DNA from: Tetrahymena elliotti 4EA
Lineage: Eukaryota > Ciliophora > Oligohymenophorea > Hymenostomatida > Tetrahymenidae
DNA: 64,000 bases
Direction of reading: 5' to 3'
NCBI GenBank assembly: GCA_000231825.2
Contig: JH720321.1
Span: 101,227-165,226, forward strand
Shown here piece after piece: positions 30,328 to 60,685 of the stretch. The notes under the pieces were generated by a model. The model was not told the origin of the DNA. It was given only the letters and a program-made list of their open reading frames with translations, and ran no database searches. The translations under genes were made by a program, and so were the position numbers. Position 1 is the stretch's first letter. The number at the start of each line of letters is the position of its first letter.

Positions 30328-33300
30328 TCACTTATTATTTTACTGAAAAATTCTATGGTTATGAAAAATCTTAGGATAACGAGAGACATATTTGCTATAA
30401 ATACCATAAGATAAAAAGGTTGGTTTATAGCTATCTGAGTTAATCTCAGAAGGGTAATTAATAATATTCAACTAGTCATTAAAAAACATTGATCTTCTGG
30501 GTATAAAAGAGGACACTAAAATGTTATTTCTTCTACCTTTTGTAATATGACCTTTACTATCTTTATTATGCTCTGATATTTTTTTGCAGAAAACGTGATT
30601 AAAGTTATTATGAGGAAAGAATCTTTTAAATATTTTAATTCTATCAAAATTATTCATAGAAATTTAACTACAATTTAACTCTTCATCAAAAAGCATCTTT
30701 GACTACTTAGCAGTACAGGCATAACTTTTTCCATTTTTCTTCAAAATATCTTCAAAAAATTATAAGATATCCTATTAGTTGTATTTATTGGATAATGTAG
30801 AAATCATTTGAGAAGCAGGCATGTTTAATATTTACATACTTTTACTATTTGAATTGCTTTCATTTTGCTCATTTTAATAAAAATTAAAGTTAAAATTTTT
30901 TTATGATAGGTTTGACTTATTTTGTAGAGGTGAAAAAGAATTTAAATTGACGTCGTTTAATGAATGAGATAAATGGCTATTTGAATCTTCTAAATGATTC
31001 ATATTATTGTATGATGATATTGAATTTTAACTTATCTGATAGACTAAATTTTTTAAAATACTTCCATTCAAAAAATTTAACATTTCAATTGTACTTTTTG
31101 ATTATTAATCATGGAATTCTTTTATTTTCGTAAGCCCTCTGGCTGTTTTTCTGTAGCTTGAAGAACTCTGAATTGGGTTTATTGTTTCTTCATCACTAAG
31201 ATTAGCTAAATAAATGTCCTCAGAGCTTAGCTTTTTTTTAGAAGAATTATTTTTTTATTTTGAGCCATTCTTTTCAATTTTTTTAACCTTTTACTTCTAT
31301 TCTAAAGAGTTTAAATTTGATGACAATCTTGCATTCGAAATGGATTTTTGCACTTAAATTGAACTTTTGATGTTTGTAAATGAATTATTTAGTTAATCAT
31401 TGCTCATTTCTATTTAATGTTCTTCTTCTAACTTAACATCATTTTCTATATCTGGATTTTATTCTTTGAATATTGTACTTTTCTATGGATTAAAATCAGA
31501 TCCTAAATTTTAGATTGACTTTTAAGATTATGCAAATCTAAAAATTTCATTTTCAAAATGTGATTCTTAAAAATTGTGATTTTGGAAAATAGAATTTTTA
31601 TTTTATCTTTCACTAATTTTTTACTATATTGTAGATTTTTGCTTATCTCCATGAAATTTAATATCTTTTTTATCTAAAATATAAGAAGATTATTATGATT
31701 GATCTAAAAATTCTGATGACTCATCCGAAGAAGTTTAGTAGTCTTCATCTTAATTATCAATATTATTTTGAGATTACTAAAAATCTACATATGTATTATT
31801 AAAGTATTTCTCAGCTTAAGTATTAAAGTGTCTTAATTATTTCTTTAATTTTTTGCAAATTTCTGCATTCTTCTATGCAACATATCTATTATTATTATCG
31901 TCATCATAATTTATTATTTTTTAAATAAAAAGAAAATATTTTTATTTTACTTTGGACTTTGCTTTTTCTTTCTTCTTTCTGTTTTTTATCTGTTTTGAAA
32001 GATGCTGAAATTGTATCTTAGATTCTAAAATTGAGTATCAAATTTTTGATGTATTGTAGGACAATCATATGCTATATGTCCTTGCTATTTGCAGATATAA
32101 CATTCTAAAGATATACAGTTGAGGTTTTTTTGCACTTTTATCAATTCTTCTATCATTTTAAATCTTTCAAAACCTTCACTGTTTTCTTTTAAAATTTTAA
32201 TGAATTTATCTCTATCTATTTTATATAATGTTGATAGATTTAAACTACGAGCACAAGCTTTACGAGCTAAACCTGAAAAAAAAGATATTTCTCCAAAAAA
32301 ATCCTTCTTCTTTAACTGCTTAAATACATGGAAAGAATTATTTCTATTTAATTTACTTAGAATAAAACTGCAATTCGGTGGAGTTAATTGATATATTTCA
32401 ATAACACCACTTTCTATCAGATAAATAGATTGATCTTAGCTGTCTCCTTGCTCAAATATTATTTCATTAGGAGATATTTGAATTTCTTCCATTATAAAAG
32501 CCAATTTAATCAACGTTTATTCTGAAAAGTTAAATTAAAATATTGAATATGTCTTTAAAATTCTTTAGTTAATCTCAACAGTGATTTCATCTCTTAGCTT
32601 TTTAGTTAATCTTTTTAAAATATTACTTTCTGCTTATAAATTTCTATCTTTCTACTCATTAGACAAAAACTAAAGATAATGCCTAACTCTACTTTATAGT
32701 GGTATGTTAACATTTTTCCTATTTAAATATCTTTAATTTAATCTTAAAATCTTTTATTTTTATTAAATTTAAATTTACCTCTAAATAGTTGTAATATTGT
32801 CATTCAACTCTTTAGAAGACTTTTCTATTTCTTAAAGAATGAAGCCAATACTATTAATCGAATATGCAAACATGCAACTAAATAAAATCATTGCAAAAAG
32901 TATAAAAATTGCCTCAACATAATTAGTTGCAGCAATATCTCCATATCCAACTTATAAATTCAATTAAAAATTTTTCAAAAAACTAAAATAAAAAAGATTT
33001 TATTAATACCTGTTGTCATTGTTGTGATGGCCCAATACATTGAGTATGCATATTTTTCTATATAATTCTCATCTTTTAAATTATACTTTTATAGCCAAGA
33101 AATTTAGTAGCCATTTTACACTTCATAATTTCCTATGAAATACCAACACAAACTTGCTATTTTTTCAAATTAAAAAGATGAAATATTTAAAAATAAATTT
33201 TTAAGAGTTTTTTAATAAAAGTTAAAAAAAGAAAATTTACCTATGTGAGCTACAGAAAATACGTTAATGAGCTGATTGCATAACCTGATCAAATGTTTTT

Positions 33301-36404: not shown

Positions 36405-39400
36405 ATGGATAGTGAGAATTCAAAGCAAAATAGTTTATCTAATTCTCAAAGTTTGCCTAGCATTCATTAAGGATTGAAAGTTCCTTTCTAAGCTCTCTTA
36501 GCTATGAAAGATTTAGAAGAGTTAAAGAAAAAATATGGAGATCAAAGGGGAAATTCTTATCAGCATGTATATTTATTTTTAAATAACACACTTCATATAT
36601 TACCATTTAAAAATTTAAAAGTAATTAATTCATTTATACTATTACTTAAAAGGGAGGGTTAAAAAGAAAATTAAAATCATTCTCAACTTTCAAAGGCTAG
36701 TAGAATGCATTAGATAAGAAATAAGTACCTTCCATCCCTAAAGCGAGAGATAAAAGCTTTATAAATGTCATCAAAAATAGTGAAAACCTTTAAATTTTAG
36801 ACTAAGATGATTTAAGTTATGAAAATGACAAAGTTGAAGCAGCAAACATACTTAAAAAATAATTAAAGGCTAATGTAGTAAATAGTCCTTAGTTTAAGAT
36901 TAATGCCAAGTAATTCTACAGTAGAAAGTTTGATAACATATAAGTAATATTTATTTTAACTCTTTCAAAAATCACTTAAAAAATTTTTGTTCTACATGAT
37001 GATTTAAATCATCAAAAAAGCTCGCTGACCAAATATTTAAAAATGTTTTAAATAATTCTTATATAATATTAAAAGAAATAAACATTAGGAATACACTCGC
37101 TTATGCTTGATAGTCGTACAAGACAAATTAGATTTCCTAAGATAACTAAAATGAAAACTGATGATCAATTTCAATCAATTATGGAGAAGTCAATTGTAAA
37201 TCGTAGAGAAACAGAAGATTTGTTATTAAACATTTCTCGTGTAATTGGTGGCCCAGGTTTAAGTGAGCAAAATTCTTTGATGGAAGATAAATAGAATTTA
37301 AATTTTTCATTAAACAAATCTCATCATGATAAGACTTTAATTTTACATAAAAATTAGAGTGAAATTTTATTTTAAAACACACAGCTTTGTTATAGTAATG
37401 AAGAAGATGAACACTTTTAGAAATAGCTAGGAAATATAATTAATGACTAATCAAATTAGGAATATTGGGCTGATACTTCTAACATTAAAGATTAAAAATA
37501 AAAGAATATTAATTTACAAGCTTTAGAAATCTAAGATATGTCTGCCATTCACAGCAATAGCAAGGTATACAAAAAGGATAGCATAATATCTAATATGCTA
37601 ACTCCATTTAATAGAAATAGTATTTAACTGCAAGATTAGACACCTTCTCTTTTTAACTAAAAATCGAGAGGATTTAAAGGCAGAAAAAATTTTAGTTAAT
37701 CTCCAAACAATAATTCAAGTAAATACATGGAGGATAGTATTATTTAAGGATATAACTTAAATGAAGATAGTATAGGAAACGATTTCAATGATTTGTTTCA
37801 CTCGCAGAATAATAGAGCTATTAATTAAACATTTGAAGATGATTTTTGTGATCCAACTTTAATGATTGAACCTCTTGAAGAGCAGGAAGCAAATATTTTA
37901 AATATTAATATCCCACATAAGAATAACTTTAGAATTGAACCATTAGATTAATATGATGAATATGCATTGCAAGATACCAACTTTAAAGAAATGCTTGCTA
38001 CAGGTCCTCAATAAGCAATGTCTCGTTGGTAAGATAAAAGTGGAAAGGTTTATTGGAAAAACTGTATTGTATTAGAATATGATGAATAAACCAAATTCTT
38101 TACAATTCAATGGAGCAACATATAAAAAGCTAAATATAAAAAGGTTAAGAGGCTCAACCTCATGTTTTACTTTGATGATCCTGCTGAGTATAAAAAGAGG
38201 TATCTTTATATATATATATTTTTTTTTTTTTGAAATAGTTGTTCAAAAACTATTTTTGATTGAACTTTAATTTATTTAAATAAATATCTGATCTTTTTTT
38301 ATCTATTTTTGATTGTTTTTTATTAATTTTTCCTTAAAAGATATCGTGCAGCAGTCAAAAAGAGAGAGGAGTTTTTGCTAAATTAATAGTTGACTAAACA
38401 TATTGATTAGAAGTAAGGATAAGAGGCTATTATTTTACCTATTGATAGCTTGAGCTAAACAATTGACATAATTTTGGAAGGTCATTAGAATTAGGTTGAG
38501 AAAAAAGAAAAGATAATGACAGAAGTTATAGGTCTTTATAAATTTTAATTAGTTAAATTTGATACTGAATTTGAGTCTGTACAATATGATGTAAACACTT
38601 ACTACTAAAAGTTTTTACCTTACCTTAGTGCAAATAATTTTGTAAATAAACTTCCTTTGAAAGACAAAGAAAAATTTGAATTTCATGAGGTAGGATAAGA
38701 TTCAAGCTCTTAAAGCTAACAAGTAATTAGATATATAACAAACAAACCTCATTTAGTTTAGGATAAAAACAATTTAAAAATTTATAGTTGGATAGATATT
38801 AATAATAAAAATAAATTAAGTGTTTAAGAATTAGCTTCTCTTTAAATATCATAAGTAATGTTAGGGTTTATCTCAAATATTGAGTATTTAGATTATTTTA
38901 AATAGTTCAGGACATTCAAAAAGACTATTTAGGTAATAAACTTAATAAAAATATTATTTTATTTACAAATTTATTTTTAAAATTTAGGCAAGCAGCTTTG
39001 AAATAAACAAAAACTACACATCAGAATTTATGAGAGCTATTGAGTAAATTGATAGATTAGCTTACAAAGTTGAGAAAGGAATAGATGAAATGAAAATAGA
39101 TTTCTAACAGTAACTCTTTGTTGATTCCTCAAAACTTCTTTACTCACTATCTAATAAGCTAATAAAAAATGCTATTGAAAAATCATTCAAAGTATGATTA
39201 ATAAAAATAATAATAATTTTTAAATAGATTTTTAAAATTAAGAAAAGTGCTGCTTAGTTAATTGAAGAATTTGAGAAGTTTTATGCTTTCTTACCCTTAC
39301 CAGAAATAGGAATTAAAGTTATCAAAAAGTTGCCTGAATAATTTTTCTTAAAGAGAACTCAATAGAGATAGGTGATGCTTTTAGATTCAGATTAAAAAAT

Positions 39401-42400
39401 TCAGGATAGACTAGTGAAACAATAATTAAATTTTATATCAAGTATTTAATAATAAAGAGAAAGATCTTTTTTTTAATAAAACGATTACAATTAAGCTTAA
39501 TAATCTCAAATGAATTCTAGAGATAGCAAAGCATAACAAGAAATTATGTTTATTACATAACAGTAAAACTCGAAAAATGCAATTGAATCATCAAGAAAAT
39601 CTGATATTTAACCCAACTTAAATTTATAAATTTAAACAACTTCAAATGATTAAGGTTAATAATAATAGTAACAGTCGTAGCAATAAATTAGTAAAGGTAT
39701 TGAGGAAAGCTTTCATGCTATTATTTTTCCTATTTACAAAAATTTATAAAGTCAGGATAGACAAATTATAAATTCAATAGCATAAGCATTGCAAAATTAA
39801 TTTTTAGAAAATCAAAAGCCTTTGATTCAGCTCAATTTCATTAATCCTAATTTAAATAATCTTCCTCAATTTGCTAAATATGAAATAGAATGGGTTCTGA
39901 ACAAGGTATTTCTTTTTTTTGACTAAAATATTCCATAAAATAATTTTTTAAAAAAGGAAAATAAAATTGAAAAAAGAAATTATGAACAAAGAAAAAAGTA
40001 AAGGAAAAAATATAGAGAAATATTCTACTCTCAACATGAGACCTCAGAAATAGTATTAATTAAGTAGAACATTCAGGAGAAAGAAGATAAGAAATTACAT
40101 ACTCGTGTTAAAAAAGTAACACCCAATCCAAACGAAGACTAAACAGAAAATAAAATAGTAACTTTCTAATTTCTAAAAAACTTTTAATAATAATATCTTA
40201 ATAATTAAAAGTAGGATGAATTCTAATGTATAACAAAAGGAAGATTTGATTTCATCAATTTTCAATATTTAGTCACAACAACTTCTCCATCACTTAATAA
40301 CTTAGAAAAATTGATTAAAGAATCTTTTAATATCCCTTTAGATAAAATTACTCAGCTCTATTAAATAGGTAATCTTCTAAATAATTTTTCATATTTTTAA
40401 TTAATCATTCATTAAAAAATTAAAAAGAAAGAAATCTTTTAGTAAAAAATATTAATCATATTTCTTGAAATTTATTTTGAAGATTTTAATATTGACAAAA
40501 AAATTGTTTCACCAAACATTTCAAAGATTAATGAAAATTTTTAATTAATAATTTAATTTCTAACTTTCTCTTGAGTCCATTCAATAATTATTATTTACTT
40601 TTAAAAATCAAAATTTTAAAGATTTAACTCATAAAATAAATTATTATATTTAATTGATGACTTTCTAACCCTTTTGAATATTAAAATTAAAAAAATATTA
40701 AAATAGGTTCATAAGAATCAATTTTGTATGAATCAGAAGAATTTTAGATAGATATTGAAGCTGTTAAGTCTGCTTTGTAAGAAATTATGCCTTGGAGTTT
40801 TTATAGTATTTATGCTTTCTTGGTCCTGATAAACAGCTTTTCTTTTCATTTTACTCAAAAAAGATATTATATTTAAGGTATTTTTATTCACTTGTTCTTC
40901 AATATGAAATTAAAGACTATTTTTGTTTTAAAAAGATATTTAGACTGAGTTTGATAAAAAATCTTAAGGTTTATATTTTATATGTGAAGAAATTAACATT
41001 TTAGAAAAAGATTTGATGTTTTTCAAAATTGGTTTACCTAACTACTTAAATTTTGGTTTAATTTTACTCAAAACAGAAACACTCAAGCAAGAATTTATAT
41101 AATTAATTCAATTTTACATAAACTAGTTAAAGAAGAGTATTATTCTTATATCAAGTTATTTCAAATTCATCATTTTAATATTTAAAAAAGTTATATAAGA
41201 TAAATTGGTTTCTCAACTTTAATCTACAAGATAATAAGTTTAAAATTTCACTGATAAACTTCAAAAAAATCCAGCTAATATTAAAGATTATTCTGAAATT
41301 TCTGATTACTTATCAAGCCAAGCAATCTTAGAATAGTACACCGATCTATAGAATTAGATTAATTATATAAATGACCTTATGAAAGTCTCAGATGAATATT
41401 CTTTAGAAATTTCTTTTGATACTATTCAAATGCAAGTTGAAAGTAGATCCTGGATTTTATAACTTAGAAACATTGAATAAGAGTAACTAAAAAGGTTACA
41501 ATAAATTAAGTAAAAAATATTTTAATTTACCTAAATATGATGTCATCATTTTAAATGTCACCTTTTTTTCATATTTTTTTATAAAAAAGACCTAAATTTG
41601 AAAAATCTTTAAAAGATAGCATTGTAAATCTTTTAGCTAATTTCGAGCAATAAAAGTAGGTTTCTGAATAATTAAAATAGCAAGGATCTTTAGAAAATAT
41701 TTTTATCCTTTCTTCATAGACAAAAAATTTAAAGTAATTTTTTTGTATAGTTTGAAGATTAATTTACTAAAAAAATTTTGAAGAATCGAACTTGATGAAA
41801 TTTACCAAAAGGCTTAAGAATTGAACTAATATGAGCATTATTTAAAAATGAGTCCAATTACAAATTTTAGTGAAATTGAAATATGTTTGAACGATTTAAT
41901 GAAGTATTATGATTTATGGGATTTTGCAGAAAGGTGGAAACTTAGATATGAAGAGTGGACAACAAGACCTCTAGTTTTTATGGAGTCTAAAGAAGTCGTT
42001 GATACTTTGAATGAAGGATTCTAATTATTGCCAGATTTAATTTTAGATTTCAAAGACAATCCATTATTCATAGAAATAATTAACAAATTAGAAGAAGAAA
42101 TCTAAAAATTCAACGGAGTAATATATTTAAGAATTATTTTCATCTCAAGATGTTTTTTTTATTTTAAAACAGTATACGCATATCATTATTCAATTGAGAG
42201 ATAATTGCTTTAAATAAAGACATTGGGATGAATTAATAGAAGAAATCCAGAAAAATAAAAACCAATAAGATTTTAGAAAAATAGATTCTGGCTCTGTAAC
42301 TCTCTAAAGATTAATTGATGAAAATATTTAAAGCTATTCAAGTCATATTAATAAGCTTTACCTAATAGCTTAGTAAGATTACTAAGTAATTTATTCGAAA

Positions 42401-45400
42401 ATTTTTAAAATTTTGTTTTATAATTTAAGATAAAAATAATTTAGTGGATAATTAAAATTTTTATTTATTTGATTTATTCAGAAGGATACTTTAACAAATT
42501 AATTTTTTTATTTCAAAGATTGAATTAGAGCTATAAAAGATTGAAGCAATCTTGAAAGAGACATTCTTGAGGACATTCCCTTACTATTTAGATGTTTCTT
42601 AGGAGTTCACATTTAAGATTATTAAAAACACCGCCGATGTCATTAAAAATCTATCAGAAGCTAAATTTAGAGCTAATATTTTAATAAAAAATTTAGTAAT
42701 TATTGCTTGTTATTAAATTATTATTACTTTAACAATTTATATTTTTTAGTCTTTTGCAGATATTTTTAAGAAGAGAATGAATTCTGTTTATAAATTAGCA
42801 AGAAATGGCAAGAAAGCAATTAAGATTATCAAGAAAGTTTAAAATTCTTTATTAGATTATGCTCCTCTTTTTGTGTAGTTTTAGTCTTATGAGAATGCTA
42901 AAACAAATTAAGTAAATTAATTTAAATATTATTAATATAGACTAATTTAAAATGTTCTTATCTAATTTAAGGGTGATAGATTTTTTTCAAATGACTTGAT
43001 CAAACTCTTATAATCACTTATTGATGATTTTAGTTAGCATTTTGATGTTTTAACTTTACCAGGGTTAAACCTATTTAACTTATTTTCAGAAACAGAATCA
43101 TAGGAAAGGTAATCAATTCATGATTTAAAAAGTTTTTAAAGTTTTAATTACAAATAATTATTCAAAGATCTTTCCCTCAAAGTGACGAGTTTAGAAGAAG
43201 ATTAAAAGAAACCGAAAATTTTAGTAATAAATTAGTTCAAGAAGTAAAAAAAGTACTTACTAGACTAAGATATAAATGTAGTAGATTATATTTTTTAAGT
43301 GATGAAAGTATAATTGAGATATTAAGACTATGCAATTAGGTGTCTAATCCTTAGCTTATGATAAATAAACTATTTTTACCTCTCTACTAAGGTTTTAAGT
43401 CACTTAAAGTTAATAGTGTTAGTAAAGAAGCTAACATGAATTTGGAAAATGAACAATTTATTATTACAAACTATGCAAACATATTTAACATTGAATCTAT
43501 TGTAATTTACATAAATTGAACAATATTTTTATTTTTGACATTTTTATAAGTAAAACAAATTAGATGAAATTTTGGTATTAGATGATAAGATAAATATTGA
43601 TATTTCTAAAGGATTAGAGAATGTTATTGATGGACAAATAAAATTAGAAGAGTCTATGAGATATTTATTAAGAAAATAGTTTCTTAAAAACACATAAACT
43701 TTGACTAGATTGGGTTTAGATTATCATGAAATTTACAGATTATTACACCAAAAGAATGAAATAACTTTCTAAATAGCTTATTTGAATATCGATATTTGTT
43801 TTTATCATGATCTAACTACTACAATATTAAATAGTGAAGAAAATGATGAAGTGCCAGATCTAAATCTTGGTGACTTCCTTTAAAAAATTAGAATTTATAT
43901 GCAAAACTTTATAAACAATCAAATTTAAATAGGCCTTTCAAAAGTAATTTTATTAATTTTTATTATTTTCATAATTCATTAATAATATACAGAATGAGTT
44001 ACTAAAGTTCTCAGGTTTGGTTATGCAAAGTCTCAATCATCAAAACATTCTTCAACGCTTTATAGATTAAAAAGTAGACACTTTAGCAAGCTTTGACTAT
44101 TTGGGTCTGCCAAAATTTTCAGTAGAAGTTGAAACGAATCAAATTTTAAAAATCCTCTAACAAAACAAACACAACTAAAAAGAAAATCCTTTATTTTAAT
44201 TGAATCAGTAAGAAATAATTTAACATATGTTAAAGTCAGCCAAAGTAGCCTTAGAAAATAGAGAATCCACAGATTATCCTAATCTTTCAGAAAACTCTGA
44301 ATTTTTTTACTACTTCAGTCTCATTGATAACCCTGAATTGATCAATGTAAATTTAATGTGTATGAATTACAAGGTAATAATTTTCTTTTCGTTCTTTATT
44401 TTTTTTTGAGAGCAAAATTTATTCATTTATTTTATAAAATAAAAAATATTTTCCATTTTTTTATTTAATAAATGTCTTTGAATCTTTTTAATTTTTATAA
44501 ATTTATTGAAGAATTTTTGCTATTATTAAAAGTGTTTTTTTTAAACTTTTTCTAAATCCAAAATTATATTTATCAATAAATACTTCATTAACAATTATTT
44601 ATAAATTAGAGAGGATACACATGGGAATTTATAGCTGGAGATCATTATACTTTTGTAAATACTTACTAGACTGAAAGAATGCTTTTTAATATAATTGGAG
44701 CTATATCAACTAATACTTCTATTTTGATTAGAGGTCCATAGTCTTCAGGTAAATAATCCACAGTTAGCTATTTGGCAACTATTTTAGCAAAACCTTATTT
44801 TACTTGGAAGTTCTCAGATTAAAATGATTTCTCTTCTTTGAACCAAGTCTTGATTGGAACTGCTTAGGGAGGCTATATTACTCTTATTTAAAATTGTGAA
44901 TATTTAAATACAGGTATGATTTCTACTCTTGCTAATATCATCTTTTAGATCAGAAACTCTTGTATTTCAAAAACAGATATCCTTGATAGTAATAATTGCC
45001 CTATCAAAGTAAATTTTAGTATGATAATTAACAGAATAAAAATATAAAATGTAAAAAAGGTTAGTGAACATTGGGGTTTATATGCAAGCTTTACTGTGAG
45101 ATAAGACTCTTAAGTTTTACAATTTTCTTAAATACCGAATATTTTGGAAAGTTTCAGAACTGTAAGTATTGTTTAACCAGATATTCAGACTATTTTGGCA
45201 GCTAAGCTAACTCTAATGAATTTTATTAAACCTTTAGAAACAGCACAACGTTTGCACGTTTTCTTTTAATTATTTACATCTAGTTTAGGCAACTCTCACT
45301 TTTTGGTGGATTCGTTTAAACAACTTGATGTTATGTAATAATAATAAAAAGTTTTTACAAAATATTAACTAAATTTTAAATAAAAGAACTCTTGATTAAG

Positions 45401-48400
45401 TTTCATAGACAGAATTCAACCAACATCTTTTTAATCCAAATGCAAATACTTTGATGAAAATTTTAAGTCATGCTGAGTACTTTTTGTTTGAAAAAAAAGT
45501 ATCCAATGAGGATGAGATAGAAAATTACACCCTTTTATATTCTGCAATTAATGCTTATTATTCGCATGCTCTTTCATAATTCCATCTTAAACTTCTCAAT
45601 AACTTGTTTATTAAAAGTAAAAATTATCATAATATTTCTTTAATGTTAATTGCTTTCTTTTTTTAAAACAGCATTCCCTGAAAGTCAAGTAAGTGAAGGG
45701 TATTTGTTCAAAGATTTTTAGGATGATGCAGCTAATGATGAGGAGGAAGGTGATGGGAAATAAAAAACTGTTTAAATTTTACAAACTCCTTAAATTTCCT
45801 CCTAAAATCTGCAATAAAATAAAGATGAAAACCATGATGATGACTTTGAGCAGCATATTTTTGATTATTTCTAAAAGGTTCACAAAATAAAACCTTCAGA
45901 AAGATTCATTGATACAATTTTAGACATGATATTTAATATAAATATCAATAAAACTATCCTCTTAGTAGGTTTGAATTCAAAAGTTAAAGATTATGCAATG
46001 AATGCAGCAGCATATGTTAGCTCTCTTTTTGAAAAAACCTAGTTTTAAAAAGTAAATTTTTATAAAAATAATTTCAATTAAAGAAATTTTTATTCATTTT
46101 AAGCATTACATAACTCTTGATGCTAATGATTACACATTTTTGATGGGAGAGCATGTAGATGGAGTATGGAGAAAAGGTATTCTACAGCAACTACTAGAAT
46201 CTATAACTTACATGAGTGATATTAATATGTATTCAGAAGTACTTAACTAATATTATAGATCAAATTACCTTAACTTCATAACTTCCCCTGCTAATCCTCT
46301 AGAATAGCAAAACAAAATCTAAAATTTAAAGTCAAAATCAATTGAATCAAATGCTCTCTTAGTAAACCAAATTATTTTTTTATTATTTTAAACTTAAAAA
46401 AATAACTTAAATATAGAAAAAAAACTAATAAAGTAAATCCAGATATCCCGAAAACATTTTAACTTAAAAAGATTGGATAATATTTGAAACAAGCAGCACA
46501 AATTTCAAAGGGTAAATGATTTAAAAGACTCAATTTATTTTCAAGAATTTCTAAACCAATTTTAAAAAATATTGAAAAAATAATAAATTATTTATACATA
46601 AAGGAATTAATCTAAATTGATAGACTAAATGATAAAAAGCATAGAATAGAGAACATTATTTTTTGATAATGGATAATAAATTTAGCTACACAATACACTT
46701 AAACTTATTCTAAACTTGGATTAATTAGATAATATTACTCCAGGCTGCTTAGGGAATTTCTAAATTTTTAACTTTGGTTATAATAATTGTGTTTAAAAGA
46801 ATTCAAATAATAACATAGTTTCTTATGGTTTCCACTGGAGCATTAAAAATGATTTCGAACGTTGGATGGATACACTAATTCATTAAAATAAGTTTTTCAA
46901 TTATTGTGAAAAAATACTTAGAACTTGTTATATTTATTTATTTGAACCTATTTTAGTATTCTTGAAAGATAGTCTTGAATAGAACTCTTCTGGTGAAGCT
47001 CGAAAAATATTCAATAATCCAGGAGCTATTGTTGATATAATATTGCATTAATAGTAAAACTTTTTATCTCTGCTAGAGATATTTATGAATGAATTCCGTA
47101 AAACTATGGTAGCTCAAGGAAAATATGCCATCACCAGTAATTCAACCACAATGAAAGTAATTTATTTTATTAACACAAAATATGAAAATAACAATTCTTC
47201 TTTTACTATTAGGATGTTAGGAGCAAGGCTTTTTATACATTTATTTCCCTGTAAAATAAAAAATAATCTTCTCCAATCAAAAATTAAGATCTAAATGATT
47301 CTGAGTTATAGTTAAATACTGATGCCTTTTACTTAGAAAAAGAATTTAGAGCTCCTGTAGAATCAATATTCCTTTTTAGTTTGGTGTAAGGTATGTGTAG
47401 TAGTTATATCAATCCACAATTCTTATCTTAACTTACTGAACATTGCTTAGGCTGTGTTAAGAAACTTAAATTAGCTCATGAAAATATTTTTTCTTCTAAT
47501 TTCAAAGCTTGTTAAAACTTCAGCAAATTACTCAAATAAAATAAGGTAAAAAAATCTTTTTATTTTAAAAAAATCAAAGTTTTTATTTAAAATTATATTT
47601 AATAAAAAAATTTGATTATATAAAATAGTCTTTAAGTGTACTTGATTTAATTTATGATATAAGAGAGCTAGCTTGGGTTAGGCTGTCAGAGTTTATTATC
47701 CCAGAAAATATTCCATTGCTTGATAGCTCTTTAAGCAATGACCATTTAGAACTAACTGAAATTGTTCGTTTGAATAAGAATGCATTACAAGTAGAAGAGA
47801 TGAGGAAGTTGATGGAGAATAATTAAGAAGTTGTTTATTAGTTACCAACAAATGATAAATATGTAGTCTATTTGTCTGCTCCATTTAAAATGACAAAGTA
47901 TTTAATAGACTATTTGATGGGGTACAAAAGAAATATCTTTGTTTTTTCAGCTCCCTAAGCAGGAAAGACCAAACTATTTTAATATTTAGAAAAGTAAATT
48001 ATTTTATTTTTGAATAATAAATTAATTTGAATTTAAAATATTTATTTAGATAACATTTAGAGAAAAATACTTACAAAGTTAATGTCATTTAACTATTAAG
48101 AAATACAAAAATTAATCAATTTTAGCAGTTTTTTGAGAACTCTTTAAGCTTCAAAAATTTTTAGACTAAATAATCAGAGATAGGAAAGTGTTCTTATGCA
48201 TTCATAGAAGATCTCAACTTAGTATCTCTTGAAGGGCCCAATATTATTGGTTGCTTGAGATCTTTAATCACTCATGGAGGATGGATTTCTCAATAAAAAA
48301 ATAGATTTTTGAAATTTGAGAATTGTAATGTAATGTGTAATTATTCATCAAGAAAATTGCTTTCTGAAGATTTTTCGGTAAAATAAAATTCTATTGATTA

Positions 48401-51400
48401 AAAAATCTAACTTATTTCAAAATTTTTCAACTAGAAATTTGTTCAATTGGGATCTTGCTTGAGAGAGATGTTTTTAGTCAAATTTCCTGATATGAACGGT
48501 GACCATTTATCTGGAATATTTATGGAAATATTAAAAAAATCACCAATGTTTAACACAAAAGAAAAAATGTAAGCAAACATTTAAGCAGCTGACTTATTGT
48601 AAAAACAATTAGCCAAGTTTGCTCACAATTACATGAGCAGCATACCTAAACTAACTCAAATCACTTAAATATTTAAAGTAATTCTTATTTTTAAAGTTTG
48701 TTCCATCATTTGATTTAAAATTTAATAAAAAAAGATAAATTTCAACATAAATAAAGTTCTTATTTTAATTACTTCTGCTCTGTCTCATAACAATATTGTT
48801 TAAAATGGGCTACTTAATGAAAGCCTATTTAAAGAGATTTGGAGATATATTCTTGATACATGCTTTTTAGATAGTTTGCCTTGGAACAAAAGTGCATTTT
48901 TCTTTGAAAAGCTTAAAAATAACTAAAAAACAAATGCTAAGAATCAATTTATATTTAATCTTTTATAGGATAATATATCTGATTCTGGTAGTGATGAAGA
49001 TGATTCTTAATATATCTCTCCTCTAAAAAAGTGCTCTTCTCCTTTAAATTAAAACAATAATATTTAGAGTTTTAGTCTAAACTCAGAAAATACTAAAACT
49101 TAAAAATAGGCCTTTGAAATTCAAAATTTCCTAATCGAGACTTTGTACAGCCCCAAAAGAACTAAGTATTTCTCAATTTATCCTTTTTAATTTTATCAAT
49201 TAAACATTTTTTAATTGAAACTGATCCTAAATAAGTTAAAAACTCAAAAGAAAAATAAAATTTTGGTAAATTACTTGTATTTGAAAGAGAAAAAACTTTC
49301 TCTTTTATTTTTTAGATTAAATGTTAAAAATATTTAATATTTATTTCTAAAATAATATTACTTTTTAATACTTTTATATTTTAAGAAAATATTTTTTGGT
49401 AAAAAAATTAATCAAATGATGTTATTTAGATTTGTTTTATAATTTAAGATATTATTTACACATCAAATTATAATTGAAAAAAATTAATTAATTTATTGAA
49501 ATAAACAAATTAATAGTATTTTTTAAATATTTTAAAAGGAGAACTTTGGAAACTTAAGGATTAATTAAATTAGGTTAAGTGAATAGGGTTAGATAATCAA
49601 AGTTGATAAATATGGAAATGGAGAGATAGTATTATAATTTAGAAAATATTGACTAATTTGAAAATAGGACCAGATTTTTGAACTAATATTTCAGTTAAAA
49701 AATTGACAAAGGATAGGAAAGTTTATTAAAATAACTTTCTAAGTTATCACAGGAAAAGTTTTAAAAATTTCCTGCAAAATTGCACAAATTTTTCATAAAT
49801 ACTATGACTTATTATTTCTCTTAAACAGGAAGCGAAAATAAAAGTAAATTCAATAATTAAGATGTCAAAACTGTTTTCATTCCTCATAACTTAACTAGTG
49901 TATAGTAGTCTAATTTACAGGCTTCTCTTGTCAAAATAGAGAATCTTAATTAATCCTAATTTAATATTGATCAAGATTAGAATAAATTGATATAAAATAT
50001 TTCAGATAGAGACTAATTTTATTTTACTCATGAAAATAAAAACAATTTTACCTCTTACCTTAAGAATAAACTATTAGAGTATTTGTTTTAGTCTCCTTCA
50101 TAAAAAAATGAAACTTAAGCTAACAAAAATTAGAAAGAAGCAAATGGAGTATTAAATGAAAAAGAAATAGGCAATGAATATTTTAATGTCCAGGCTTATT
50201 GGGATATATAAATATAACTTGGCGGAGTTGAGAATATCTAAAGTGATTTATCAGCAATTGTTAACAATATTTATATTTTAAAGCAAAATATTTCTCTCTA
50301 TACTCCTAGCCCAAAATCTGAGCTTATTAAATTTGTTAGCTATTTAATGGGGTCTAATTACATTTAGATTAAAATCTCTTCTGAAAATTGTGTTTCCATC
50401 TTTTTACAATCAATTTTAGGTAAAATAAAAAAATATTTAATGAATTTATTAATTATAATTGTAAATAGAAATTTTGAAGGGAATAATTGATGGAAATCCT
50501 GTACATACTTTAATTTAGTTTACAATCTCAGACTTAAAAAGCAAAGAATTCAAAAGAATATTTGAAGTTTTCTAGATAATTAAAATAATTATCTAAAATT
50601 CTAATTTGGAAGGTATTTTCAGTTAAAAGTAGCTGAAATTATTGCTAGATCCTTGGAAATAATCATAAATTAAAAAAATCACAACGTAAATATTCTATAT
50701 AAATAAATATTTAAAGTTGAAATTAAATTTTAAAATAAAGATTACAATAAATGGAGGCTAATATTTCAGAGAAAGACATAAAGCAGAAATTAGGAGGATT
50801 TAAACCTAATTTAGTAGAAAATCATCTGATTTATATCTTAAAATAAAAGCTATTGGATTATATTAGCTTTGTTATTGAAATAAATCCTGATAATTATAAA
50901 GAATATTTAATTCTTAAAGATTAAATTCCAAAGTCTTTTACACATTTTAATGATCATTTTTCTTTTTCATCCAAAAACACAGAAAAAAGTGATTTCTAAT
51001 TAGATGAAATTGATAAGCTTATCAATGAGCCAGTAACTTAAGAAGCTATGGGAAAATATTGGCAGATAGAAAAAGGAGTTAGCTAAATATTTGAAATAAA
51101 TTATTTCTAAAATTCTAGTAAAAGCCTTAAAGAAATAGAATTTTATGTTCCTCATCTAGCTAGAATGATTCAAAATAATTTACAAAATACAATAAACAAT
51201 CTTTCTTCTAAAAAGAATGTCTCTCAAATAATAAATATTGACATGATTAAATAACCAATTAATAATAAACTTAAATCCTTACTAGAAGAGCTGTTAGAAT
51301 ACAAAGTAAAATATATTGACATGAAAAAGCAGTATGAAAATTTGCAAAAAGTAATTTTAAATTCAAAAATAAAGTATTTTTAAGTAATTTTTTTATTTAA

Positions 51401-54400
51401 TTTAGCTCTATGATAACTATAAAAATTTTAATAATTATAAAATGAATTATACTAAAATATAAAATACTCATGAAAGGGAAAAAATTCAACGTGAAGGTAA
51501 AAGAAAGTCTTCCATAAACAACCACTTATTGACTGATTAGAAAGGATACCAATCTGAGAATTAGATGACATTATAAACAAGTAAAGTAATCAATTAATCA
51601 ATTAATTCATCTAGAAGATTTAATAGAAGTGGATCTAATGATATGAATCAATCATAGGATGATCAAAAAATGATGGAATCCCATAAAATTTACATAGAAG
51701 AAATAAAAAATGAAATGAATGAGACTTTACATAAACTAGAAGCAGCTAAAAGAATTTACTAAAATGCATTCTTAAATTTCAGATATATAAATCTCCTCTT
51801 ATGCTAACTTTTAAAGACCATTCATTATTACAGGTATTTTTTACAATTCAAATATCATTTTTTAAGGATTTTACTAGTTTATCCAAAATAATAAATTAAT
51901 CCTGTAATTGTGGAATTTTAAACAGGAATATTGCTATATCTATATTTTTTTTTCAAATACCAAATACTTTTAAATTTCATTAATCAAACTTTAAAATATT
52001 TTTGCAAACATTTTTTTAAAAAATAAATGAAAATTTAATTGATAGTCTAAATTAATTTGATAGGAAATACCTATTTTTACTATTTAAAATTCCAATACAA
52101 TGTAAAATACATTTATGAAAATATTTTTTTTATTTAGGAGATTAATTAATTTTTTTTAAATAAAGGTAAGAATGTAATCCCATATTAACATTTTAAGAGG
52201 GAGAATTAGCTAAATATGCATATGATATTTCTCTTTACTGCTTTTCTGCTCTCAAATATCCAGCTTAATATAGAGAAAATCTTTTTGATGTGTTACTTTA
52301 ATAAAATAAGAAGCTAAATATTCCTTTCTATAAAGTAAATTATTAAATATTTAAAATTATCTTAATTTTTTTAAAAGTTATTACTAGAAAGCCCCACTTC
52401 ATATCTAGAATAGCTTATAAATGGGACAGATTTAGGAATTAATATAATAAATGAATATTCTTTAATTCATTTCTTAGTTAATATTGATATTCTCCCTCTC
52501 TGTATTACTGATGAAACAGGTCTATACTTGCAGTAAATTTTTTTTTGTGATTTCCTTTAAATATGTAGATGTTCTAAATAAGTTTATTTTTAAAAACTTT
52601 TTTTTTGAAATTAATATGATTCAATTTGTAGGTATTGCTATTTAAGGATCTAAATATTAAAATACAATTTTGACTTATTTAATGAATTTATTTTTCAAGA
52701 TTATTTTCAAAAATTTAAAATATGTTTTTCTTATAATATTTATATTTAATATATATAGATATCTCTAAAATCAATGCACATAAAAGTAGAAACGTAGTAT
52801 ACATATTGAATATAGCTCTGTAGATGAAGATAGCTTGGAGAATATTGAAAATGCTATTTTGAAAGGTTCTTATCTAGTTTTACATAATCCAGATGAGGCT
52901 TTAGTTGATCTGATTTAACCAATTTTAAATTTTAAATATAAAAATTTAATCAAGAGCCTTGTTCTATTTAAGAATTCATAAAATTAATAGAAGTTAGAAG
53001 AACTATTTACTTTTAATTAAAAGAGAATTAAATTACATCCTTAATTTAGATTGATTATTATAAATTCAAGCTACTCAAGTTTCTTAATTAAGAGCTTCAA
53101 TTCAGCAGCTATCTTTGTCCATCTATCATTATAAGATGTAAAATAAATTAAAATTGTTATTTCAGATTATTAAAAATTTAATATTAAAATAGAAAAAATT
53201 CTTCAGCAGCTTTGTCTATGACAACATTTTAAATACTTTTTTTTCATCAGAGAAAGAAAAGGTGATTAAGGGGGAGATATTTAAAAGAGAAATTTTATCA
53301 AAATAAGATTATACACTTGAAAAAATATTACCAATAATTTCTAAATTAAGTTTAAGTGAAAAGGATTCTTGGAATTAACTTATTTAGCTTCTTCCTCACC
53401 ATATTGTTTATCAAGCAGCAGTAAAATAATTAAAATAAAATTTAAATTCGTCAATTTATAATAAATTTATAAAAGGAAAAGGAAGGATTAGCTGATAGCT
53501 TAGGTGATGATGATTAAATTTTACAGATTGGACAGATTTCAAACTAATATATTTAAAAGAATTTTGAAGACATTGAAAAAGATTAATTAATGTTGAATGC
53601 TTAACATGTTGAGATAAATAAAAGCATAAATATAGAGAATTCAGCTTCTTCTATGAATGGCAGTGGAGGTAAATAAGGAGATATCACTAAATAAAGCAAG
53701 AACTTAAGAGAAATTTATGGAGATATAAGTTTACATTCTTAAATTGGACAGCAACTTTAAAATATGAAAGATGAAGATGAAGAACTAAGAATTTCTACAT
53801 ATTAAAGATAAACAAGTATAAGAAGACAGAATACTTATAAATAAAAGACCTCTTCTTTAAAAAGATAAAATACAATATACAGTTAAGTTTCATAAAATGA
53901 AAGTGAGGCTGAATCTAAAAGCGATGCAGATAATAATTTACCATAATTCTGCTTCTTTAATTTCGAAATAGTTGACTTGCAGCCAAACAGCTCTCTCTTA
54001 CCAGAATATCCAGTATTAATCTTATTATTATAAAATATAAATAAATGACCATTATTTATTTTTTAATAATTAGTCTTCAAAGCTGATAAATATTGCATCT
54101 AAATTCAAAATTCTCATAGAAATTTTGTATGGACTAAAATTAAGCTATAAAGAGGTTGTTACTTAAATAGAAAAAGAAGATTCTAGTATTAAATACAGCG
54201 ATGAAAATTTCTTATTAGTGTTCAAGCAAGTTAGTGATTGTTTGAAGTTGAATTAAATTAGTAACATTTAAGCCACATAATTTAATAAAAGATTTGCTTC
54301 TATGTTCTATCATTATTTATATTGCACTCTCAGAGAAGATCATTAGACAGTATGGTAGCTTACTCTCTCATTTTTCTTCTAAATATCTGCATTAAATGAT

Positions 54401-57400
54401 ACAAAATAGATTAACTATACTTATCTTTAATAAAAAATTTTGCTTGAGTAGAGAGTAAAACCTATTGAGAGCATCATATTTAGCAAGTTAAGCACAAACA
54501 GATATTGGGATTCATTTATGACTTCCTTATTAGATTTATATGGGTAAATTTTGAGAGATATTTTTATTAAATGAAATAATAGTATTATTAAAATATTTAG
54601 CATTTTATTACTTTTGTTTTTAAAAATTTATTTTATTTAAAATAGATCATATGAAAACTTAGTTGCACCTCTGATCAATTTCAGTCATTAGTTTGAAGAG
54701 AAAATTATGAATGATTAAGATAAATCTAAAATAATTAAAAATATTTATAATTCGTTTAAATAATTTAGTATGGTAAAAAAAGATTGTCAGAAGAATTAGG
54801 AATAAAAGTTAACTTCATCTTAGCTATTAAATCAAAAGTCTTCATTTTACTCTAAAAAAAATCCTATGCAAGATCCTTCAAATTTGGAAAAAATAGATGA
54901 GTTAAATCATAGCATAGATAGTTAAATTAAACCAACTTAACAATTCTCAGATAAAAAAAATGAGAAATTGGATATTTTACTTTTAGAAAGTAAAAAGGAT
55001 TCTAATTCTAGTTCAGATTAAAGTGATTCAGGCTCAGAAGAGAAAGATGTAAAGAAGAAGCTTTTAAGAGAAGATTAGTAGGTAAATAACTAATAAGAAG
55101 GTATAAATGTTTAAGATTCTTAAAAAATTGAAACAAAAAATCCTTCATAGAATGAAATTAAAAATAGTAAAATGAATACATATAACAAATTAATGGGTGA
55201 TGAGGATTCTGAAGACGAAGGGTAAAAACTTGAAGACCTTAATATTCTTTAAGGAAGTAAATAACCAAATCAAGAAAATCCATAGAAAATTACTAGAGCT
55301 ATGAGCGAGTATTACGATACCTAAGGAAATGAAGTAACAAAAAAGCAGTCAGAACAAAATTAATACTTAGAGTCGATAGTTGATTTGATTGATAATGAAA
55401 ATTTATAATCAGATATTGATATCTAATAATAGGAAAATAATGATAATGTAACACCATAATTAAATGAATAGCCTATTTCAATTAAATCGGAATTGGTTGT
55501 TTAGATAGAGAGGGAATAAGAAAATCTTATGATTTAAACCAATTAATCTAATCAAGTTTTAAGTGATCAGAATATCTAAAATAAAGGCTCAAATGATGAT
55601 AAAGAGATTAAAAATAATGAAAAAAAAGAAGAGAAAAAATTATCCTAAAATTAAATTTAGACAACTAAGAATGATGTAGTAAATCAGATAAATTAAGAGT
55701 ATACAATAAAATTAAATAATTAAGATCAAAAGCAAATAGATATTATTCAATAAGATTAGATTTAGAATAACAACATTAATTTAGAAAATAATCATATTTA
55801 AGATGAATTTAAATAATTACCTGAAAAGTTAAACCTTGAAAGTTAGCATTCTAAAGATGTAGAAGAAAATGAAGATGATGATAGAAGTTAGTTGAATAGT
55901 GTTAATAGCTCTTTTATGGAATCCCCTAAAGGTTATATGGTTTAAGAAGAAGATTTTAATAGTCCGATACCATAAAAATAAAATTAAATAAAACTTGTTC
56001 CTTAAAGCAATTTCCTAATTTAATTTATAGAATAAAAAAAGATTAGCTAACAAATTATTGATATTCCTAATGTCAGAAACTAAGATGTCAAGGAAAAAGA
56101 TTACATGATACGAATGGAGCAAGAATTTAATCTTAATTAAGAGTAAATATTTATCAATTTTAAATTTTATTCAAATTTTTTTTTTAATAAATCAATTTTT
56201 GTTGAAAAAGTTTTCTTTTTAAATTTTTTTATTTGAGTATTAATTTTGAAAATATTAAAATAAATAAAGAATTTAAAAACCTAAAGAAAAAATTGGTTCT
56301 TAAAAATAATTGGACATTAAAAAACTGAATTTCATTGGAATGGAGGAGTAAGGAAAATAGGAAATAAATCTAGAATCTAGAGGAAGAAACTAAGAAAATA
56401 AAAATTAATCTGCTGAAAATGAGAATTAATTTGGTAACTTTGTAGAAAAAACAGACTCTATAATTTAGTTGTATAAAGAAAATAATAAGAGGCCTGGACT
56501 CGGTCTCCCTATTATAAAATCAAAGTTTGATAATCTTCGTTATGATAATGATTTGATGTGGTTTGGAATTAATTCGTACAAAGCAATTTTCCATTCTTCT
56601 TAAATTTTAGGAAGCAAAGAAATTTAGAATACTCTTATAAGTTTAGAATCAGAAAAAGTAAATTTCAAAGAAAGTATATTTGGTTTTTAAATTTTACTTA
56701 TTTTATTTAGGATATTTGGAAAAACATATTTTTCTTAAGCCACTCAGAAATTCTTAAGGATGAGAATAATTATTTGGACATGATGAAAGAGAAGCTGGGA
56801 GATTTTAATTTAACTTTATTGATGAAATTCTTTAGGCCTGACATTTTAGAAGATTTGACTAATGTTCACTTAACCAAATAGCTATCAAAATATTTTGTTT
56901 CTCACACAAAAGTAAGCAATCTTAAAATTATTTTTCAATTAATTGTAATCCACACATAAAATTAAAAAACAATTAAAAATATAAAAGACTAATTTGAATG
57001 CACATTCCAGAGCTAATTGGTACAATAAACCTACAGTTATATTTTATGGCCATCTAAATAAAGTAATTTTTCATCAAAATTAAATACAAATTCATTAAAA
57101 AATAATATTTAGACTATAAATGAGTTGCTTGAACTGAAGGCTTGCAAATAAAATCCAAATATAAAAGTAAAAAGAATTCCCTTAGGCTCTATTAGTAATA
57201 AAGTAATTAAATAAGAACTTAAAAATGCATCTGTTAAAGGAGATTGGGTAGTTTTAGAAAATATAAAATCTGTTCCTTATGACCAGCTAAGTTAATTAAT
57301 CAAAATAATAAATAATGCTTTAAATAGTAATGAAAACAAGAATGAGTATTTTAAAGTTTGGATAACCCAATAGTAAATGAATAAAAGTTATGAATTACAA

Positions 57401-60400
57401 GAAAATCCTGGTATTGTTTAGACTCATAGAAACAACAGCCAAACTTTACTTTAACAATTTTTCTTCAACTGCTTTAAAATGTTTATTAATCGTCCAAATA
57501 ATATCAAAAATAATTTAAGCGTGCTTTATACTCTTGAAATACATGAATACTTAGCATTTGTTGAAAAAAAAGTAACTCAAACACTACCATCCAATTATAA
57601 TTTTAGTACTTTAGGAAAATAACTTTAAAGTCCAATTCACGAAACAATCAAATACAGATTTTAAAAATAAAAAAGACATGAAAATATAAATTATTCATAC
57701 AATATTCATAGTGTCTTTATTGATAGAGTAGCTTTAAGAGAAAAAAATAAGCATTCTGTTAACATACTAGAAAAATTCTCTAACAAAATCAAATTCAACA
57801 TTTTCTTTATCTTTTCTATTTTAAGATAAAGATAAAAATACCATAGAAAATTAGCTGAGTATTATCAATAAAGTGAGCTACTATTCTTCTCAGATTTAGA
57901 TCTTCTATATATAGGTAAATATTTTATATTTTTTTTATATTATGTGATAATGTATTTAATGTATCAAAAGTTGAAGATGGGTTCCACTTCTTAAATTACT
58001 ATTCAATAAATCCATCTCTATTTTTCAGGACTTATTTAAAACTCATCTTTTCTGAAGAAATGCCATACAACGCTCACTCAACATGGAATATTGCCTCAAT
58101 GAGAGATTTGCTTGAAGAGCTTGTGTTTAAAGGAATTGATAAATAAACAATTTACACTTCAGGAGACTAAAAGTACACTTTATTTATTGATTAACCTAAT
58201 TAGACTACTGAAGAAACCATCTTTAAAACAATCAATGAATTACCTAATTTGGACTCACCACAAATAATTGAAATATCACCTAATACTGAGATTCAGTATG
58301 GATTTAATGTAATACTTATTTTCAAATGAATAATGAATATTTATTTTTTTGTTTGAAATCATTAATTAATTTTCGTTTGAATTTAATTCTAATAGAGATC
58401 ATAGAGATTAATGGCTAGAATACATAAGAAGGTATATCTTTAAGAGTAACTTGGAAAAGAAGCAGAAATGCTCAAAGAATTAAAAACCTAAATTGAATAA
58501 TCTACAGATGAAAAAGATAGTCTTTCAGATGTAAGCATAGTTTCATCAAATGATAAAAATATACAAAAAGGTGATGATTTTATATTATAGCAGATAGGAT
58601 AGATCTATGCCTATTGGATTAATCATATTGATTTATTGGGTAAAAATATGACTATTATCTAAAAGATTTAACAAATTTAAAGTGAGTTTAAGATTTTGTT
58701 TGAAAAATCTTAAAATTTAGATTTATTCTAAAGTAAATTTGGTAATAGTAAAATTTAAGAAGAAAGTAACTCAGACTCAGACAGTTCAAGTGATATGAGT
58801 GAAGATTAGAATGCTTAGAATATTATATTAAATAAATACTCTAAGAATGCATTTTAAATAAAATTAAAAAAGAATAATAATGATTCAGATTCTTCATTTG
58901 ATTCTTCTTTTTCAGATTCAAGAAATGAATAAGAAAGCCAATAAAGTAAAAATAAATTGAATCAATCCCCATAAAAATAGAGCTTTGTTGCAGAAGATTA
59001 AAATTTGAAAAAGGATTTATAAAAATGGCTATCAACTAAACCTTTACATGATGCTCCAATAATAAGTAGAAAGAGTAACTTATAAAATATAAGAGAAAAA
59101 AGTGAAACTTAGTTCAGCAATAATAGATTAAGCTCTCCTAGAATTAAGTCTTCTGTAAGATAACCTTCTATAACAAATGTAATGGTAGGTAATTTATAAA
59201 GCTCACCTCTACTTAATATAAAACCTAATTACAGATTAAGTGTTGCTAATATCTCTTAACCTCACAGGTAGTCTGTATTTTTTGGAAAACAATTTATAGT
59301 TGAAAATTAGAATTCTCCTTCTCCTAACTTGAATTCTCCTTCTCATAACTTGAACTCTCCTAGTAAGAACTCTCTTATATAGTTATAGCAGAGTCCCATA
59401 GGCAATAACAGCCCTACTTTCCATCCTAGAAAAGAATCTATCTTTCTAAAACAATCTAATATAATTGGATAAAATTTAATTAAAGCAAGTTATTCTGATT
59501 AGACACCCTCCAACAAAGTAAGTGATTCTATTCAGCTATTAAATTCACAAACAACATGCAATACAAAAGAAACAAATTAACCTGTCTATAATGTAATATT
59601 TTTTTTGTATAATCTATTATTATAATAATTATTCTAATTTTTTTTAGTCTACATTGCAAAACGAGCTCTAAATTGCTAAATCTTTACTTAAAAGAATCAT
59701 CACTGATCTTGATGGAGTAATATAATTTGTTTTGTATCGTTAGAGCTCTTTTACTTAACAACAAAGAATTTTACTCTAAGCAGATTTGTTGAAAACTTCT
59801 GAATAAGAATCCATTTTAATTGATATATTAGAAAATAAAGTACCACAAAATTGGTGGATTTAATCATTTTTGATTAGAGAAAATGATTTATAATAATACA
59901 TGAAATATTTAGTCCTAAAGCTAGAAACTCTTAAGCTTATTTTAGAGGAGAGAAGATGTAAAATGTATCCTGTAATATAGCTAGATTAAATGTTTGATCC
60001 TTTCTTCTTGATCTCTTCTTTCTTAACATACAAATCTACTGAATTAAATACTAGTATATTTGATCTTAAAATTGAATGTGAAATATAAGATAAACCATAA
60101 ATACAATAACCTACTGATGGCTCTATGTTAATAAATGGTTTTTTCATAAAGAATGGTAGATTGAATGACTAAAATGTTTTAGAAGTAGAAAATCCAAGAG
60201 AATTTGAATATAAAATTCCAAACATGAAAATAATAGTGAAAAAGAAAATATATAAAAACAGCTTTTACAAAGTATAATATTGAAACAAAATAAATAAAAA
60301 AAACATTTTATTTTTTAATAAATAGAACTATGCTTCACATGTGACTATGAATTTTACAGATTAAAGTTTGTATGATTTTGAAGGTACTTACTATGCTCAA

Positions 60401-60685: not shown

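Follow-up and report, generated by a model that had tools for sequence, protein, structure and literature searches.

Without hydrolysis at AAA1, a dynein makes no power stroke. RNF213 and midasin contain dynein-like AAA rings with some dead units; to our knowledge, both lack the DHC_N2 and Dynein_C domains that the gene described here has. Table 6 of PMC3341644 credits Tetrahymena thermophila with 25 dynein heavy chains, and the relevant passage of PMC9776847 gives ciliary peptide counts for Dyh3 to Dyh25, with Dyh21 missing from that passage and no counts there for Dyh17. The animal gene DNHD1 is characterized in a passage of PMC8754002 as a "ghost" orphan heavy-chain gene, perhaps turning pseudogene, and an excerpt of PMC9916431 gives its product as 4,753 residues and links it to sperm-flagellum defects. 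Compared by description only, DNHD1 resembles the gene reported here in being non-canonical and outside the ordinary set (passage of PMC8754002).

We analyzed a 64,000-nucleotide stretch of the Tetrahymena elliotti genome (the window, C29:101227-165226) and searched that genome as a whole (≈90 Mb in 134 contigs). All coordinates are window positions on the plus strand unless stated otherwise. With a probability that we put at roughly 0.6, the gene at 36405..60685 encodes a catalytically dead heavy chain of axonemal-dynein descent, from a family with at least six members, that likely serves as a large fixed scaffold. The six-gene family is the main result and what is new here; it was invisible to the first-pass annotation, which had been made from the single sequence.

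Our own Viterbi gene model, built with genetic code 6 (in which TGA is the sole stop) and predicted splice sites, comprises 44 exons separated by introns of 43 to 373 bases and encodes 6,752 residues. It recovers the start at 36405 and the stop at 60685 of the first-pass annotation, and lengthens the product from the ≈6,500 residues proposed there. The region scores 1054, compared with 95 for its reverse complement and 60 to 120 for five simulated sequences, under retrained parameters whose training set included the gene itself. The same method, run on ten ordinary dynein loci for a positive control, yielded models between 4,418 and 5,434 residues long, some of which reach the ends of the fetched stretches and possibly have spurious ends; GPAGTGKT and C[FL]DEFNR were found in each of the ten. 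Every landmark block named in the first-pass annotation of the window gene could be located, in order, along the model, as listed here with the other features:

36405..60685 (+), whole predicted gene (Viterbi model, code 6, control scores)
36405..37927 (+), N-terminal extension, residues 1-479 (gene model, predicted start codon)
37928..38380 (+), N-terminal module, residues 480-583, common to six family members, two ordinary loci and three PDB chains
41881..43465 (+), linker, Pfam DHC_N2, residues 1523-1941 (E=5e-25, above cut-off)
42194-42232 (+), linker landmark LRDNCFKQRHWDE
44616..45296 (+), AAA1, Pfam AAA_6, residues 2214-2440 (E=3.5e-14, above cut-off)
44733..44756 (+), AAA1 Walker A, GPQSSGKQ (ordinary GPAGTGKT; alignment)
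44871..44906 (+), AAA1 Walker B position, GYITLIQNCEYL (ordinary ..[FL]DEFNRI), both acidic residues gone (alignment)
45968..45991 (+), AAA2 Walker A position, GLNSKVKD, lost (alignment)
within 46152-46169 (+), landmark DGVW
46474..46497 (+), AAA2 Walker B position, WIIFETSS (WIIFDGP in, for example, ordinary chain D54; alignment)
47893..48341 (+), AAA3, Pfam AAA_7, residues 3158-3288 (E=9.9e-14, above cut-off)
47947..47973 (+), AAA3 Walker A, SAPQAGKTK, GKT retained, S for the first G (alignment)
48195..48284 (+), AAA3 stretch from FIEDLN to HGGW (profile alignment and coordinates)
within 48195-48218 (+), landmark FIEDLN
within 48270-48284 (+), landmark HGGW
50236..50963 (+), degenerate AAA4, no Pfam match; within it YTPSPKSEL at the Walker A and HTLIQFT at the Walker B position (profile alignments)
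51069..52169 (+), shortened stalk, microtubule-binding tip not recognisable, a polar stretch instead (length comparison)
52257..53059 (+), AAA5-like region, residues 4287-4464 (hhalign E=0.0023; also inside the family alignment)
within 52260-52289 (+), landmark QYREN
54782..56140 (+), polar insert of ≈450 residues upstream of AAA6 (composition)
56828-56842 (+), landmark FFRPD
57119..57382 (+), AAA6/D6, Pfam Dynein_heavy, residues 5667-5754 (E=9.2e-9, above cut-off; 34.7 bits in the genome search)
within 57245-57268 (+), landmark WVVLEN
58732..59592 (+), polar insert of ≈290 residues (composition)
59774..60334 (+), C-terminal domain, Pfam Dynein_C, residues 6486-6654 (E=7e-13, above cut-off)
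59834-59857 (+), landmark NKVPQNWW

The heavy-chain order from linker to C-terminal domain, first proposed from these landmarks, is borne out by five Pfam domains and by a collinear profile alignment. The Pfam scan took four spliced pieces of the protein (residues 1-1441 and three gaps between pieces lie outside it) and returned DHC_N2, AAA_6, AAA_7, Dynein_heavy and Dynein_C above the Pfam cut-offs in the correct order, with no Pfam match of any kind in the 1,330-residue middle piece. Aligned to a profile of ten ordinary chains, residues 1322-3353 match at E=1.8e-30 (HH-suite probability 99.8%), residues 5493-6053 at E=6.5e-7 (92%) and residues 6434-6665 at E=3.7e-4 (36%). AAA4 and AAA5 of the window gene are detectable by profile comparison only: the AAA5-like region is collinear at a probability of 12.7%, and AAA4 is collinear yet insignificant (single-sequence E=0.26). 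A profile of four family members gives one alignment with the ten ordinary chains that runs from tail to AAA6 over 2,741 columns (E=2e-76). The predicted protein is thus a dynein heavy chain by descent. The C-terminal piece had no match in the PDB at E up to 1, and a single-sequence structure prediction of AAA1 (exon 17) was set aside at a mean pLDDT of 35.2.

A genome search with the window AAA1 recovered four relatives, C94, C28, C4 and C59 (39%, 28%, 32% and 34% identity, respectively), which rank above the sole two ordinary loci matched. The AAA_6 profile returned 25 ordinary loci and five weak matches, namely C94, C4, C28, the window gene and C59; these counts are lower bounds. A sixth member, C115, is by sequence the weakest of the family. 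It is absent from the matches of the AAA_6 genome search; with C28 as query, its AAA1 piece was found at E=7.2e-4, last of 23 rows and below 13 ordinary-locus matches, and its N-terminal module at E=1.5e-9, ranked below ordinary locus C65; its DHC_N2 match is below cut-off. The three pieces lie on one strand in the correct order, and the aligned AAA1 carries the Walker B pattern of the family. The number of ordinary loci equals that of the published T. thermophila chains in the table cited above (PMC3341644), a match by number only, and the six family genes come on top of the 25 ordinary loci. A candidate seventh member at C20:343873 shows a DHC_N2 match and, beyond it, nothing but unclear coding, and was left uncounted; the stretch C20:343200-346199 (DHC_N2 at 50 bits, no AAA_6 or Dynein_heavy match listed) is possibly a tail-only or truncated dynein.

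The six share a changed Walker B stretch in AAA1. In an alignment of the family with ten modelled chains from the 25 ordinary loci, this stretch reads GYITLIQN in the window gene and GYWLYIKN, NYWLYVTN, NYWINLTN, GFWLYIKS and GFWVHIQN in the five relatives, compared with AWxC[FL]DEFN in most of the ordinary chains and [FL]DEFNR in all ten. Walker B of AAA1 is lost in all six family members and intact in 10/10 modelled ordinary chains; the MNPGYAGR loop is likewise found in 0/6 and 10/10, respectively. Over 1,057 columns, a branch of length 2.34 parts the six from the ten, with an ultrafast bootstrap support of 100%. Family members are on average 30% identical to one another and 17% identical to the ordinary chains, which average 43% among themselves. 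The window gene, its own Walker B replaced, is closer to the five other members (25-27%) than to any of the ten ordinary chains (≤18.5%); C115 shares 24-30% with the members, and these two genes are the most isolated. We conclude that the window gene is one of at least six predicted genes that have lost the AAA1 Walker B and stand apart from ordinary chains. That relatives in the same genome have this AAA1 defect suggests that a family of non-moving dyneins has been retained for some other task.

The exact place of the window gene inside the family has 83% support, and the introns add little to it. The window gene has 0, 1 and 0 intron positions in common with C94, C28 and C4 (≈0.6 expected by chance), whereas these three share 8 to 11 with one another, so that intron sharing, which had been expected to back the family link, did not do so for the window gene in this comparison. 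Taken with the 83% placement, this chance-level sharing leaves some small probability for an independent origin of the window gene with long-branch attraction; the contrast in introns also suggests an early split inside the family or wrong splice calls. The comparison of the six as one family covers C94, C28 and C4 models cut off by the fetched stretches and partial models of C59 and C115; the C94 model has gaps in AAA1 and AAA2 and probably misses one exon (a further match lies at C94:198197-198682). In the genome search, Dynein_heavy was matched within the family in the window gene only and Dynein_C in C28 only, the Dynein_C of the window gene being seen only in the spliced protein; these Pfam models thus miss most of the C-terminal halves of the relatives.

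Dynein heavy chains are usually regarded as motors, and here at least six large, apparently dead ones stand beside 25 ordinary ones. The family would allow the reuse of the dynein ring as a building block to be tested, and gene knockout is routine in Tetrahymena. It also bears on whether animal DNHD1, a possible pseudogene-to-be in the passage cited (PMC8754002), is an isolated oddity. None of the open-access papers listed in our literature searches describes a dead-dynein family of this kind in its title or in the opening of its abstract.

The stalk of the window gene is short. From the landmark at the end of AAA4 to the AAA5 landmark we count 312 residues, compared with 416-463 in the ten ordinary chains (measured between slightly different end points) and 444-455 in C94, C28 and C4; the missing length is about the size of a microtubule-binding domain. 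No tip is recognised in the predicted protein, in which residues 4141-4200 are 80% polar or small; the loss of the tip put forward in the first-pass annotation is visible as shortening. C94, C28 and C4 keep the length of the stalk, and their tips are strongly diverged. Isolated stalk profiles were uninformative, both against ordinary chains (best E=0.0047 for the three relatives and 0.22 for the window gene) and for the window gene against its relatives (E=0.012).

The tail suggests a link between the family and the axoneme. An N-terminal module of ≈100 residues, for which Pfam has no clear family, is common to all six members, C28 having served as query. The ordinary loci C65 (E=4.7e-10) and C38 (E=6.6e-4, weak) carry it too, and a profile search finds it in the PDB chains 8glv_JG (E=7.1e-11), 9y6s_6k, annotated as IDAa heavy chain (E=2.4e-6), and 9e5c_6a (E=3.5e-6), all three from entries that we take to be axonemal. 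The window gene thus carries the module of a chain named for inner-arm dynein a, a module also present in two further PDB chains, and HGGW in its AAA3 is presumably of axonemal type. It resembles inner-arm heavy chains in linker, AAA ring order and Dynein_C, and the three listed above in the N-terminal module as well; it differs from inner-arm chains in having lost the AAA1 Walker B, the sensor loop and the standard P-loops and in its shortened stalk, and its product is ≈2,200-2,500 residues longer than 9y6s_6k, 8glv_JG and 9e5c_6a. The module shared with the IDAa-named chain suggests an axonemal origin, and we read the family as descending from an axonemal chain, most likely one of the inner arm. 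The motor domain of the family is separate from those of the ten modelled ordinary chains, a set that does not include the module-bearing C65 and C38.

Our best guess for the function is a non-motor axonemal scaffold, a ciliary role for which the shared tail module is the basis. The tail would dock the protein to the axoneme in the manner of an inner-arm dynein tail, the locked linker and ring would provide a rigid spacer or a platform for binding, and interaction or regulatory surfaces could be found on the polar inserts; relatives that keep the length of the stalk might be passive cross-links.

Two other placements of a dead heavy chain have to be weighed. The family and animal DNHD1 could both stem from one ancient non-canonical heavy chain, which would place the window gene in the DNHD1 class as a ciliate representative. 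The accounts of DNHD1 as an orphan "ghost" heavy-chain gene (passage of PMC8754002) and of its tie to sperm-flagellum defects (excerpt of PMC9916431) fit such a reading. So does the behavior of the family AAA1 profile in the PDB, where among the best 60 of 90 matches DNAH10 is at the top (1.3e-24) and many classes lie near it at about equal strength, as would be seen for an early or fast branch. The N-terminal module argues against it by tying the family to the IDAa-named chain, and we consider common descent with DNHD1 unlikely. Among those 60 matches, and among the 16 PDB matches of another search, no chain bears the name DNHD1. It is an equally speculative and doubtful extension that ciliates hold a second ancient lineage of dead dyneins, with at least six paralogs in Tetrahymena beyond the classical 25, that are permanent parts of cilia or cortex and have DNHD1 as a surviving relative; if true, the "ghost" DNHD1 would be no decaying duplicate but a functional pseudo-motor of ancient origin.

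Alternatively, the dead motor could serve as a scaffold at a non-axonemal site such as the oral apparatus, the basal bodies or the cell cortex. The cortex of ciliates is elaborately structured, and the large polar inserts and shortened stalk would suit such a site; set against this is the tail module held in common with chains of presumably axonemal PDB entries, and we are inclined to doubt a non-axonemal location.

Whether any nucleotide chemistry survives turns on the remaining sites. The AAA1, AAA2 and AAA4 sites had been proposed to be lost, which holds for AAA2, for AAA4 and for Walker B of AAA1, but the AAA1 P-loop (GPQSSGKQ) is degraded, not erased. The window gene has neither the GPAGTGKT of a working AAA1 nor the DE of its Walker B, and a P-loop of the form [AG]x4GK[ST] occurs neither in the predicted protein nor in the three forward frames of 36405-60685; the ring of nine of the ten ordinary chains contains three such P-loops and that of D132 two. 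Searched for across the genome, a DNA pattern encoding GPAGTGKTE gave 20 matches, which fall at 20 of the 25 ordinary loci; none falls at a family locus. Of the five ordinary loci without the pattern, the three that were modelled all carry GPAGTGKTE after splicing. We rejected the possibility that other splicing restores the Walker motifs, since each of the eight Walker A and B positions in AAA1 to AAA4 falls within a single exon and the forward frames hold no standard P-loop. The loss of the AAA1 Walker B and MNPGYAGR loop and the lack of a standard P-loop support the idea that the protein derives from a dynein and has a dead motor; judged by its sequence, the motor is dead, and we infer a protein unable to make a power stroke. 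The P-loop of ordinary AAA4 reads G-x-G-G-S-G-[KR]-Q-S, to which the GKQ in AAA1 of the window gene is similar; because ordinary AAA4 has G[KR]QS, GKQ need not abolish binding, and the case for a dead motor leans more on the missing Walker B. In the ordinary heavy chain at C132, the AAA3 P-loop aligns as GGSGTAKT, without GK.

Among the family members, AAA1 Walker A is complete only in C59 (C59:554500-560999; GPQATGKS, Walker B gone), which may still bind nucleotide. The GK of AAA2 is lost in 4/4 alignable members, C94 and C115 being gapped there, with the lysine and T/S retained in C28 (GAPGKKKT) and C59 (GRSGKNKS); that of AAA3 is lost in four of the five members with sequence, the exception being the window gene. 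Nucleotide binding may thus persist in the family through AAA1 Walker A of C59, the AAA2 residues of C28 and C59, and AAA3 GKT of the window gene, in whose product the merely degraded AAA1 P-loop could also contribute. That AAA3, and perhaps AAA1, bind nucleotide and reshape the ring without force is compatible with SAPQAGKTK and FIEDLN in AAA3 and with GPQSSGKQ in AAA1; we nevertheless judge such a retained switch to be quite improbable, given that the first P-loop glycine of AAA3 is replaced, that Walker B and the sensor loop of AAA1 are gone, and that 4/4 relatives with AAA3 sequence lack its GK. Decay of an ordinary dynein into a pseudogene, which low Pfam scores beside ordinary chains and chance-level intron sharing with relatives would fit, is hardly credible for 6,752 codons without a stop that score about nine times the best control, retain the domain landmarks and have family members with the same layout.

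A 500-residue piece of one dynein chain of this genome differs from PDB 7k5b_B, the beta chain of an outer arm dynein, at only four of its residues, as fits a close relative of T. thermophila, the source of that entry. Within the window, an open frame on the minus strand (31404-33068) encodes a cyclic-nucleotide-binding domain and a CCHC zinc knuckle, with weak ion-channel matches below cut-off. Two further minus-strand stretches, 651-2087 and 2905-4479, encode membrane domains of the ABC-2 transporter type, one of them below cut-off, together with an R1 domain like that of ABCA1, and probably represent one or two ABCA-like transporters.
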